A stretch of DNA of 64,000 nt from Bacteroidota bacterium (GTDB lineage: Bacteria > Bacteroidota > Bacteroidia > UKL13-3), in contig JAUXUD010000077.1 of the NCBI GenBank assembly GCA_030680835.1, positions 1 to 64,000 on the forward strand, in the 5' to 3' direction. Shown in pieces: positions 9,105 through 54,121 of this stretch. The translations under genes and the position numbers were made by a program. Position 1 is the stretch's first letter, and every line of letters starts with the position of its first letter. The notes beneath the pieces are model-generated. The model was not told where the DNA came from. It did not search any database and saw only the letters and a list, made by a program, of their open reading frames with translations.

Positions 9105-9149
9105 TTATCCTTGAAAATCCAAAATGCCATTTTGGATTTTCAAGGATAA
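9105..9149. repeat. 45-bp palindrome (22-bp perfect arms, 1-nt centre) upstream of DUF4143 ATPase
   Basis: TTATCCTTGAAAATCCAAAATG-C-CATTTTGGATTTTCAAGGATAA; ends 17 nt before the ATG at 9167. Confidence 0.95.
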
Positions 9150-9166
9150 TTATCTAAAATTGAACT

Positions 9167-10336
9167 ATGATAAAGCGTTTACTTACTCCTGATTTAAAGC
9201 GTTTACTTGGTAAATTTCCGGCAGTTGCAATTTTGGGTCCACGTCAGGTTGGAAAAACTACAATAGCCAGATATCTGAGTAAACAGATAAAATCAAAGAC
9301 AATTTATCTTGATTTAGAGAACCCAATCGACCGTGCTAAGCTGGCAGATGCGTACTCGTTTTTTTTAGCATATAGCAATTACTGTGTAGTTTTAGATGAA
9401 ATACAGGTAATGCCGAAACTTTTTTCTGTTTTACGGTCTGCCATTGATAATAAGAGGAAAAACGGGCGGTTTATTTTATTGGGTTCAGCATCACCGGAAC
9501 TGGTAAAGGGGGCATCAGAATCTTTGGCAGGACGTATTTATTTTACTGAGTTAAGTCCAATACATCTCAATGAATTAACAACAGCCTCTCACATCAAAAA
9601 ACACTGGTTTCGGGGTGGATTCCCAAAGGCATTGCTTCCGGCTTCCAACAAAGATTATATAGATTGGATGGACTCTTTTATCAAGAGTTATATCGAGCGG
9701 GATTTAAACGCATTATTTGGGGTAACTTTTTCGGTTTCAACAATGCGAAATTTTTGGAGCATGCTGGCACACACACAGGGAGGTATTTTTAACGCTGAAA
9801 GTTTTGCCCGTTCATTGGGGGTAACTGCCCCAACTATTAATCGTTATCTTGATTTTTTAGAGGGTGCGTTTATAATATACAAATTGCCTGCATTTTTCGT
9901 AAATACAAAAAAACGTCTGGTTAAATCCCCTAAAGTGTATATCCGGGATACCGGCATTCTGCATCGTTTACACATGATTGGCAAGGCAGAAGATTTAAAC
10001 GGGCATATTGTCGTAGGGTCATCATGGGAATCATACGTGGTTGAACAAATCAGGCTCAATTTGAATAATGGATTACAACTTTTTTTTTATCGGACACATG
10101 CAGGCGCTGAATGCGATTTGCTCATTGTGAAAGGCCACCTTCCAATAGCATGTATAGAAATTAAGTTGTCTAATTTGCCGGTCATTAAAAGGGGCTTTTA
10201 TGAATCGGCGCTCGATTTGAAAGTAAAAAGACTGTTTGTATTAACACCCGGATCGGATGATTATTTGTTAAAATCAGGAATGCGGGTTTGTAACCTGACT
10301 GATTTTTTAAAAAAACATCTCAAAAAAATAAAATAG
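9167..10336 (+). CDS. AAA family ATPase (AAA_14-like) with DUF4143 and PD-(D/E)XK-like C-terminus
   Basis: Walker A ILGPRQVGKTTIAR, Walker B CVVLDEIQ, HTH-like FARSLGVTAPTINRYLDFLEG, C-terminal GAECDLLIVKGHLPIACIEIKLS. Confidence 0.88.
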   Translation: MIKRLLTPDLKRLLGKFPAVAILGPRQVGKTTIARYLSKQIKSKTIYLDLENPIDRAKLADAYSFFLAYSNYCVVLDEIQVMPKLFSVLRSAIDNKRKNGRFILLGSASPELVKGASESLAGRIYFTELSPIHLNELTTASHIKKHWFRGGFPKALLPASNKDYIDWMDSFIKSYIERDLNALFGVTFSVSTMRNFWSMLAHTQGGIFNAESFARSLGVTAPTINRYLDFLEGAFIIYKLPAFFVNTKKRLVKSPKVYIRDTGILHRLHMIGKAEDLNGHIVVGSSWESYVVEQIRLNLNNGLQLFFYRTHAGAECDLLIVKGHLPIACIEIKLSNLPVIKRGFYESALDLKVKRLFVLTPGSDDYLLKSGMRVCNLTDFLKKHLKKIK

Positions 10337-10338
10337 CA

Positions 10339-10565
10339 ACCTTGAAAATCAAAAGTAGCATATTGGATTTTCAAGGTAAAATAACTAACGTAAAGAGAAT
10401 ACTATTCAAAAAAAATAAAAATAATAACCTTGAAAATCAAAAGTGTCATTTTGGATTTTCAAGGTAAAATTACTAACAAACAGAGAATACTGTTCTAAAA
10501 AAAATAAAAATAATAACCTTGAAAATCAATAGTTACATATTGGATTTTCAAGGTAAAAAAACAAC
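10339..10565. repeat. Tandem array (about 88-89 bp unit, third unit partial), each unit containing a hairpin ACCTTGAAAATC-N15-GATTTTCAAGGT
   Basis: Hairpins at 10339-10377, 10427-10465 and 10516-10554. The inter-hairpin sequence is also repeated (ACTAAC...AGAGAATACTRTTC...AAAAATAAAAATAATA). Confidence 0.93.
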
Positions 10566-50757: not shown

Positions 50758-52200
50758 TTAAAGCTTAATACATACATTTTTCGATTCTGTGAAAAAGCGC
50801 AGAGCTTCCCAGCCTCCTTCGCGGCCAACACCACTTTGTTTCATTCCGCCAAAAGGAGTTCGCAAATCACGCAGGAGCCAGCAGTTGACCCAAACAAGGC
50901 CACTTTTTACATTTGCTGCAACACGGTGGGCTTTGCTTAAATTTTCGGTCCATAGGGTTGTAGCCAAACCATAGGTAGTACTGTTAGCCATCATGAGTGC
51001 TTCTTCTTCGTTATCAAAGGGCTGAAGGGTTACAACCGGACCAAAAATTTCTTCCTGGTTGGTTCGGCAATTATAGCTCAGACCTTCAATTACAGTAGGT
51101 TCAATAAAATAACCTCCTGCGCATCTCCCTTCAGGCGAAAAGGCTTTTCCACCTGTTAAAATGGTTCCGCCTTCTTGTTTTGCAAGTTCAACATAACTTA
51201 GTACTTTATCAAAGTGCATTTTACTGGCAATGGCACCTACTTTGGTTTCATTCAATAAAGGGTCACCCACTTTAAGCTTTTTTACCTCCTTAACAAATGC
51301 ATCTTTAAACTTGTCATAAATGCTGCGTTCAATTAACAAGCGTGAACCACATAAACAAATTTCACCCTGATTGGTAAAACTTGCCCTGACACTTTCTGTT
51401 ACCGCTTTTTCAAAATCGCAATCTGCAAAAACAATGTTTGGATTTTTACCCCCAAGTTCCAATGATAATTTTTTAAACATAGGAGCTGCAATGCGCGCAA
51501 TTTCAGCACCTGTTTTGGTTCCACCGGTAAAAGAAATTGCTGTTATTTTTTCATGTGCAACCAGAGCTGAACCTACTTTAGGTCCCAGGCCATGCACAAT
51601 ATTCAAAACGCCTTTGGGCAGGCCTGCTTCCATGCACAATTCACTAAATAAGAAAGCCGTCATGGGAGTGATTTCAGATGGCTTGGCTACCACGCAATTT
51701 CCTGCGGCCAGAGCAGGAGCTATTTTCCAGGTAAACAAATATAAAGGCAGGTTCCATGGACTGATACAGCCGACTACTCCAATTGGGGTGCGCAAGGTAT
51801 AGTTAAGGGCATGTGTTCCCATGGAATGGGCTTCACTTGCAAAATGTTCAATGGCTGTAGCAAAAAAATGGATATTGGCCTGAGCTCTTGGAATCTCTCC
51901 ATTTTTAGCAAGCCACAAAGGTTTCCCCTGATCTATACTTTCGGCCAGCGATAATTTGTCAATATTTTTTTCAATTAAATTTGCAATCTTCAGCATAATT
52001 TTACTTCTGCCGTTTATATTCATATTGCTCCAACCCTCAAATGCAGCTTCGGCAGCCTGGTACGCCAATTCTATATCCCGTTCATCACTGTCGGCGCAAA
52101 TACTGTATACTTCACCGGTTGAGGGATCAATATTATCGATGTATTGTTTTGAAACAGGTTCTGTTAATGCTCCATTTATATAATTTAAAATTTTTTGCAT
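50758..52200 (-). CDS. Aldehyde dehydrogenase family protein
   Basis: SLELGGKNPNIVFADCDF, NQGEICLCGSRLLIE, EEIFGPVVT. ATG at 52200. Confidence 0.9.
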   Translation of the reverse strand: MQKILNYINGALTEPVSKQYIDNIDPSTGEVYSICADSDERDIELAYQAAEAAFEGWSNMNINGRSKIMLKIANLIEKNIDKLSLAESIDQGKPLWLAKNGEIPRAQANIHFFATAIEHFASEAHSMGTHALNYTLRTPIGVVGCISPWNLPLYLFTWKIAPALAAGNCVVAKPSEITPMTAFLFSELCMEAGLPKGVLNIVHGLGPKVGSALVAHEKITAISFTGGTKTGAEIARIAAPMFKKLSLELGGKNPNIVFADCDFEKAVTESVRASFTNQGEICLCGSRLLIERSIYDKFKDAFVKEVKKLKVGDPLLNETKVGAIASKMHFDKVLSYVELAKQEGGTILTGGKAFSPEGRCAGGYFIEPTVIEGLSYNCRTNQEEIFGPVVTLQPFDNEEEALMMANSTTYGLATTLWTENLSKAHRVAANVKSGLVWVNCWLLRDLRTPFGGMKQSGVGREGGWEALRFFTESKNVCIKL

Positions 52201-52268
52201 AGTGCTATTTTGGTTCAAACCTAATGATAATGGCCTAACAAAAAAAATGAAACGGTGGTATATCCATG

Positions 52269-52332
52269 GTCATATATACGTTTCCGGTAGGGACAGGTCG
52301 CGACCTGTCCCTACCGGAAACGTATATATGAC
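52269..52332. repeat. 64-bp perfect palindrome without spacer
   Basis: GTCATATATACGTTTCCGGTAGGGACAGGTCG followed by its exact reverse complement; centre between 52300 and 52301. Confidence 0.97.
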
Positions 52333-52405
52333 GCACGAATGACAATTACAGTTTTTTAATTAAACCAATTCCCAATACCTTTATCAAACCATAAATTTAT
52401 TTACC

Positions 52406-54121
52406 ATGGAAAAAATACTACGCCGCGATTTTCTTGAACAAACTGCTAAAAGCTTGTTGGCCGAAAGGGAAACTGCACCTGTTTATCCTTATACAGATCC
52501 ATCCAACAAAACGCTTCCTGTTAATCTACGAAAAACGTCAACAGGTATAAGTCAATACGTGGGAGTCTGGACCGATGCAGAAAGAATACATCTGTTACAT
52601 AGAACCTTGTTTGGTGTTTCAAAAGCGGATATGGAATTTTTTAAAACGCTCAGCATGACGGAAACTGTGGATTATTTACTAACGGTTCCAACCACTCCAC
52701 CCAGTCCGCCGCTAAACCATTATAGCATCAATACCAATCAACCCGATGCAGAGGTGCCTTACGGACAAACATGGGTAAATGCTGCAGTTAATCCGAATAT
52801 AGAAGGAGCTCGCAGGCAATCATTAAAATATTGGTGGACCGGTTTAATGCTGAACCAGGAGCGAAACATCAGGGAAAAAATGACGCTGTTCTGGCACAAC
52901 CATTTTGCAACAGAAGGAAATACCATTCAGGATTCGCGTTTTATGTATAAGCACCATGCCCTTTTAAGAAGCATGAGTTTGGGAAATTTTAAAGAGCTTG
53001 TAAAACAAATTACTGTTGATCCGGCAATGCTGGTTTATTTAAATGGCGAATCAAATACCAAAACGGCACCTGATGAAAATTATGGCAGGGAATTACAGGA
53101 GTTATTTACGGTAGGCAAGGATCTTCCGAATCATTATACTGAAGATGATGTAAAAGCAGCAGCGCGTGTTTTAACGGGATGGAGAAACAACCGAACCGGG
53201 ATTAGTTCTTTTTTTGATTCATCAAAACATGATATTACGAATAAAACTTTTTCTTCGTTTTATAACAATACCATTATTACCGGAAGAACCGGAGTAAATG
53301 CAGGTATGGATGAGTTGAATGATTTGCTCACCATGATATTTGCCCAACAGGAAGTAGCTAAATATATAGTCAGGAAACTATATAGATATTTTGTATATTA
53401 TGTAATTGATGCATCGGTTGAAACCAATGTAATTGTGCCTTTGGCAGCTATTTTCAGAAACAACAATTATGATATCAAACCGGTATTAAACACACTTTTA
53501 AAGAGTGAACATTTTTTTGATACGCTAAACAGGGGTTGTATCATTAAACAACCTATCGACCATGTTGTGGGTTTGGCCCGTCAGATGAATCTGGTGTTTC
53601 CGGGGGCAGGCAATACCCAGCAGCAATATGGGCATTGGCAACTGGTACAAAATTATGCCCTGTTAATTGGTCAGGATATTGGAGATCCACCAAATGTTGC
53701 AGGCTGGCCGGCCTATTATGAAAATCCGCAGTACCATGAAATCTGGATCAACTCCGATTCATTGCCAAAAAGAAATCAGTTGTGCGACCTGCTTATTTAT
53801 GTGGGTTATAACCGGTTTGGGTTCAAAATAATTTTTGATTGTCTGGCATTTGCATCTCAATTTACAACACCTGGTAATCCCAATGTGTTAATAGATCAGA
53901 TCGTCGCTTTGTTTTATTCGGTTTCCATATCCTCCACATCAAAAACAACATTAAAAAATTCTTTCCTGCTCTCGGGTCAAACCTCAGACCAATACTGGAC
54001 GGATGCCTGGAATGCCTATATAGCCGCACCCACCAATACAACTGCTAAGAATACGGTAAACACAAGATTGCAGGGTTTACTTAAATACTTGATGGGGCAG
54101 GCCGAGTACCAATTGTGTTAA
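52406..54121 (+). CDS. DUF1800 domain-containing protein
   Basis: HLLHRTLFGVSKADMEFF, MTLFWHNHFATE, ENYGRELQELFTVGKD..YTEDDVKAAARVLTGW. Confidence 0.9.
   Translation: MEKILRRDFLEQTAKSLLAERETAPVYPYTDPSNKTLPVNLRKTSTGISQYVGVWTDAERIHLLHRTLFGVSKADMEFFKTLSMTETVDYLLTVPTTPPSPPLNHYSINTNQPDAEVPYGQTWVNAAVNPNIEGARRQSLKYWWTGLMLNQERNIREKMTLFWHNHFATEGNTIQDSRFMYKHHALLRSMSLGNFKELVKQITVDPAMLVYLNGESNTKTAPDENYGRELQELFTVGKDLPNHYTEDDVKAAARVLTGWRNNRTGISSFFDSSKHDITNKTFSSFYNNTIITGRTGVNAGMDELNDLLTMIFAQQEVAKYIVRKLYRYFVYYVIDASVETNVIVPLAAIFRNNNYDIKPVLNTLLKSEHFFDTLNRGCIIKQPIDHVVGLARQMNLVFPGAGNTQQQYGHWQLVQNYALLIGQDIGDPPNVAGWPAYYENPQYHEIWINSDSLPKRNQLCDLLIYVGYNRFGFKIIFDCLAFASQFTTPGNPNVLIDQIVALFYSVSISSTSKTTLKNSFLLSGQTSDQYWTDAWNAYIAAPTNTTAKNTVNTRLQGLLKYLMGQAEYQLC

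Follow-up and report, generated by a model that had tools for sequence, protein, structure and literature searches.

Within the window, i.e. the whole stretch of 64,000 nucleotides of Bacteroidota DNA under study, a perfect palindrome of 64 bp without spacer occupies the region between an aldehyde dehydrogenase (ALDH) gene on the minus strand (ATG at 52200) and a DUF1800 gene on the plus strand (ATG at 52406), the latter a match to PF08811. Its coordinates and sequence are as reported in the preliminary description of this DNA. The two halves (52269–52300 and 52301–52332) comprise 32 nt each, are 100% complementary, and have 0 nt between them. The 30-bp centre of the palindrome gave a single match within the 64-kb window whereas shuffles gave none, and folding of the 64 bp as single-stranded DNA resulted in −37 kcal/mol (z = −10). 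A perfect palindrome of this size in 64 kb is unexpected by chance. Two conserved promoter-like motifs flank the element, which lies outside both (Table 1). The reverse complement of the ALDH-side motif, TTAGGTTTGAAC, fits the Bacteroidota −7 box TAnnTTTG; the promoter role of both motifs is putative.

Table 1 Features of the ALDH/DUF1800 spacer, with positions in the window
Feature	Position	Strand	Remarks
Promoter-like motif GTTCAAACCTAA, beside the ALDH start	52213–52224	−	Kept in several same-genus relatives
Whole palindrome (REP core and mirrored arms), perfect and without spacer	52269–52332		64 bp
Left arm GTCATATATACGTTTCCG, locus-specific	52269–52286		18 nt; exact mirror of right arm
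Core GTAGGGACAGGTCGCGACCTGTCCCTAC, double-foot GTAG REP	52287–52314		28 bp; dispersed copies, RAYT link
Right arm CGGAAACGTATATATGAC, locus-specific	52315–52332		18 nt; exact mirror of left arm
Promoter-like motif TTAAACC...TACCTTTATC, upstream of the DUF1800 gene	52360–52386	+	Kept in same-genus relatives

A stretch of 16 nt covering arm and foot (52273–52288, TATATACGTTTCCGGT) is identical to part of the ALDH gene of the relative G003 (L150:1289–1304; E = 0.002 in a small set). The match is absent from the ALDH gene of G000, i.e. the genome to which the window belongs, and is either coincidental or derived from the neighbouring gene by an old copying event.

The core of the palindrome is a dispersed repeat. 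A search of the genome G000 (4.3 Mb) allowing ≤3 mismatches returned 14 places, nine of them exact (0 for the reversed control), and nearly all copies are intergenic. The 14 places correspond to ~13 loci, as the starts of contigs C84 and C36 look like two sides of one locus, and the copy number is low for a REP family. Exact copies were also found in >100 foreign contigs from Nitrospinota, Bacteroidota, Fibrobacter, Spirochaetia, Patescibacteria, Methylococcales, and others. The earlier proposal that the GGTAGGGACAGGTCG... core is a dispersed repeat rather than a simple operator thus holds, except that the repeat is only 28 bp long and leaves the 18-nt arms outside. The GC-rich hairpin formed by the core carries a foot GT[AG]G at one end and the complementary C[TC]AC at the other, with GTAGGGACAGGTCG/CGACCTGTCCCTAC in the nine exact copies of G000. 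A literature search on the core sequence returned no match.

Related repeats were noted alongside. The 14-nt half REP GTAGGGACAGGTCG forms arrays with differing spacers in the relatives G003, G013 and G011 (L020, L022, L027 and L031), where L022 of G013 and L031 of G011 are apparently one locus with differing array structure. G000 harbours a second double-foot REP family, GTAGAGACGC..., at L015 (C6:75726) and L016 (C92:24195). No mirrored arm was found at the L015 copy, which suggests that the arms go with one REP family. Moreover, the window holds a second palindromic repeat family (ACCTTGAAAATC...GATTTTCAAGGT) at 9105–9149, 10339–10377, 10427–10465 and 10516–10554. The copy before the gene at 9167 has perfect 22-nt arms and a 1-nt spacer, and the three further copies follow behind that gene at a spacing of 88–89 bp. 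A hairpin loosely similar to this family is found near a RAYT gene in G001 (L197:288–328).

Reading of the open reading frames between two core copies of G000 (C56:21013 and C56:21656) revealed a RAYT-like protein of 183 aa, P0001. Its translation contains the signatures PNHIH, WQ and YIKNNP, and it matches Pfam Y1_Tnp with 28.2 bits (E 2.2e-6), above the cut-off of 23. Against NF047646 (REP-associated tyrosine transposase) it scores 64.4 bits (E 1e-17), below the curated cut-off of 80; P0001 is RAYT-like and falls short of assignment to this equivalog. Several genomes of the same genus or family also contain the core or a close variant of it; in four of them (G003, G011, G013 and G021) a homologous RAYT gene lies beside the core or encloses it, the REP of G021 being inside its RAYT gene. 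P0001 is the predicted cognate transposase of the core REP. The three IS200-like genes identified by Pfam at L017–L019 were considered for this role and rejected, as none of these loci holds a core copy. The IS200-like gene on C45 is flanked by repeats encoding RGVAPIWYATAFQA / RGAAPGYDAAGFQPE (L017:1282–2150).

Published work (PMC6006769) assigns double-foot REPs to TnpAREP subclass 2.4, a class common in Bacteroidetes and Cyanobacteria whose transposases carry the signatures NH[IFV]H, WQ and YIxNNP. The element of G000 shares with this description GTAG at one end, CTAC at the other, and a REP-flanked transposase with NHIH, WQ and YIxNNP. Its assignment as a double-foot GTAG REP, subclass 2.4-like, is well supported on these sequence features. 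The element class is thus already known, and what is new are the locus-specific mirrored arms.

The genome-wide count of copies and arms suggested by the preliminary description gave, for the 14 places in G000, mirrored arms at 11 of the 12 testable loci, and the flank sequence differs at every locus. The arms extend 17–22 nt outside the core (31–36 nt in total), contain ≤1 mismatch, and show no unpaired base at the core edge. The single armless testable locus, L013, has a degenerate core; L007 was left out of the arm count as it runs to the contig end. For the 18-nt arm of the window, no other copy was found in G000 above control level. Capture of the arms from elsewhere in the genome was rejected, since no copy exceeds background, and so was the whole 64 bp as a mobile repeat unit, the arms being private to each locus. 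At two loci the arms run into coding sequence, comprising the last codons of the left gene with a stop codon provided by the core (L014) or the last codons of the RAYT gene (L006). Several arms, at L002, L005, L007, L011 and L054, are short tandem repeats, i.e. (CCCGTT)n, (CACGGT)n, (CGT)n, (CGCAAY)n and (GTAATAAC)n, which hints at slippage during arm growth.

Mirrored arms of this kind could be produced in silico if a read that was chimeric or inverted had been joined at the REP during assembly. Several core copies are located at contig ends (C36, C84, C78, C86 and C58), indicating that the assembler had trouble there. However, the window copy is interior, the adjacency of the ALDH and DUF1800 genes is kept in relatives, and mirror arms are found in unrelated assemblies too (e.g., L034, L066, L089, G005 and G010). 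An assembly artefact is therefore very improbable.

In 457 kb of G000, seven spacer-free palindromes were found, all with arms of 31–36 nt and one common centre, the foot of which varies in a single case. Spacer-free palindromes with arms ≥13 nt contain the core in 7/7 cases, and none without the core was detected in these 457 kb. The hairpins without the core are few and have loops of 1–7 nt, and no loop remnant is present in any core-bearing palindrome.

At the window locus, the spacer is ordinary and non-palindromic in every relative examined. The preliminary description had named such a spacer as evidence against the palindrome; it was indeed observed, and it shows lineage-specificity, not artefact. 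By this comparison, the window palindrome is lineage-specific. Spacer length varies: 138 nt was compared to 49–67 nt in four relatives, and G018 has a longer spacer than these four. Removal of 28, 46 or 64 bp pointed to 64 bp as new, a weak comparison given that in G018, a closer relative, the spacer is itself long. The nearest relatives are ~65–90% identical in the compared proteins, and the spacer is therefore too diverged to align or to tell which flank was copied.

The comparison also bears on function as a regulatory palindrome. The position between two promoter-like motifs would suit an operator selected for the divergent ALDH and DUF1800 promoters. Conversely, the core is a genome-wide REP, relatives that share the gene pair do so without the palindrome, and a perfect symmetry of 64 bp is far beyond operator needs. 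With a dispersed core and no palindrome in relatives, the operator reading was rejected, and we assign it a very low probability.

The direction of copying can be read from a related REP in three same-genus species. G005, G008 and G010 share an identical coding tail (DFEKNRRKNVR*). In G005, this tail is followed by the related double-foot REP GTAGAAACGCACAATTGTGCGTTTCTAC and then by 15 nt (CGGACATTTTTGCGT) that are exactly reverse-complementary to the coding tail ACGCAAAAATGTCCG, which results in a perfect palindrome of 58 bp. G010 has the same REP in the same position without mirror arm and with a RAYT cassette behind it, while G008 has neither REP nor arm and has kept a 5′ remnant of RAYT; the G008 site may represent loss rather than a site never occupied. 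The left arm in G005 is conserved coding sequence, so only the right arm can be the copy. At this REP, native flank thus occurs as an inverted copy that the relatives lack.

Foreign cores provide a wider frame. Among 141 double-foot REPs on foreign contigs, 100 (~70%) have no mirrored base beyond the foot, and a contiguous mirror extension of ≥5 nt is seen in 13 (9%), as compared to 0.4% for randomly paired flanks. A REP with a different core in G010 has 16-nt arms. The mirror-arm process occurs in several lineages, with G000 as an extreme. Together with the comparison of G005, G008 and G010, these data show that recent formation or homogenisation, as initially suspected, is involved.

We consider it probable that the REP hairpin seeded fold-back (template-switch) copying of its flank. 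In this sequence of events, the REP would be dispersed by RAYT/TnpAREP, the single-strand HUH transposase of G000. During or after its arrival in the ALDH/DUF1800 spacer, the hairpin in the growing strand would fold back, synthesis would copy the immediate flank of the REP onto the opposite side, and would then return to the normal template. The outcome would be a perfect palindrome with a shared core and locus-private arms. That template switching generates perfect stems is established (PMC8794818). We infer that a REP can seed such a switch, that the window locus arose like the arm in G005, and that replication, not RAYT itself, does the copying.

The opposite order of events is an unlikely alternative: REPs would insert at the tip of existing hairpins, the arms being the old stem, perfected by quasipalindrome correction. 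T-runs of 5–8 on both strands give 6 of the 11 armed copies a terminator-like appearance. Only the desaturase–Tig spacer regularly holds a terminator in relatives: nearly all those examined have an ordinary terminator hairpin there, and in several its outer stem resembles AAAAAATCCCC. The copy at this locus may therefore sit inside an older hairpin. Palindromes that enclose REPs have also been described in A. variabilis, T. roseum and H. neapolitanus (PMC3733652). However, the core-free hairpins in 457 kb of G000 are few and looped, whereas core-bearing palindromes lack a loop remnant; with no spacer-free palindrome without core in this sequence, pre-existing targets are unlikely. Moreover, relatives lack a hairpin both at the window locus and at the RAYT insertion site. 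In most relatives the latter is occupied by two genes with a 4-nt overlap, which leaves no place for an earlier hairpin. Finally, the G005 stem is coding sequence, the inverted partner of which is absent in G008 and G010.

Likewise, it appears rather doubtful that RAYT itself makes the arms, by nicking beside the REP (at CT, also contained in the 3′ foot CTAC), with the freed 3′ end of the hairpin priming flank synthesis before the strand is rejoined. Cleavage by TnpAREP takes place at CT on the 5′ or 3′ side of the REP, and the resulting 3′-OH has been proposed as a primer (PMC8266576). G000 has a RAYT of the matching type, and total arm lengths are fairly uniform (31–36 nt). On the other hand, simple rejoining would leave a foot remnant (TAC) after the arms, and none is present. 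The event in G005 coincides with loss of the RAYT cassette, which a replication template switch fits better.

Fold-back copying would have consequences for gene expression. The armed loci with both neighbours known comprise five convergent, four co-directional and one divergent arrangement, the latter being the window copy. The six copies with T-runs look like putative bidirectional terminators. Where an A-rich flank is copied through the GC-rich hairpin, the form of a bidirectional terminator arises automatically, and the terminator-like copies may be kept for that role. The window copy does not qualify as an intrinsic terminator, since its genes are divergent and the longest T-run in its arms is 1. 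It is probably close to neutral baggage, with an effect on the two putative promoters being possible. A more general scheme, to which we give a low probability, is that REP and RAYT routinely extend the hairpin into the flank. Every insertion would thus create a long perfect palindrome of its own and, next to an A-rich flank, a bidirectional terminator. The REP would then act as a mobile terminator seed.

The instability through SbcCD cleavage anticipated for a palindrome of this size finds no support in G000, where at least 11 palindromes of ~62–72 bp are kept. The genome encodes SbcD (177 bits, above the curated cut-off) and, adjoining it, an SbcC-like gene whose match (E 2.6e-40) stays under the curated cut-off. 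Apparently, the palindromes persist with a predicted SbcCD nuclease present. The SbcD search gave matches in G000, G008 and G018 and none in the same-genus genomes G001, G003, G004, G013 and G014; SbcCD is thus patchy within the genus.

Several known systems resemble the arrangement in part. Within the part of PMC6006769 drawn on here, subclass 2.4 REPs are described up to the foot, whereas nearly every copy in G000 has 17–22 nt of locus-specific mirrored sequence on both sides. In the GTAG-tagged REP families of Di Nocera et al. 2013 (PMC3733652), the REP also lies within a larger palindrome, but the outer palindrome is one consensus common to all copies, as opposed to the private arms of each copy observed here. 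As in template-switch or quasipalindrome mutation (PMC8794818, PMC3820800, PMC7202029), an inverted copy of a neighbouring stretch yields a perfect stem; the difference is that here a single mobile hairpin has apparently seeded the process time and again, at many loci of one genome. REPINs (PMC3116915) are likewise RAYT-linked and consist of paired inverted REP units. The element of G000 has the REP as its middle and varies on the outside. In a REPIN, the arms are the REPs themselves and the middle is variable.

In summary, at least 11 loci in one genome form a natural series in which a mobile hairpin has apparently been lengthened by copying its neighbour. Such a series allows tests of how perfect stems and new terminators originate. 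It also implies that a long perfect palindrome in a bacterium need not mean an operator, an artefact, or missing SbcCD.
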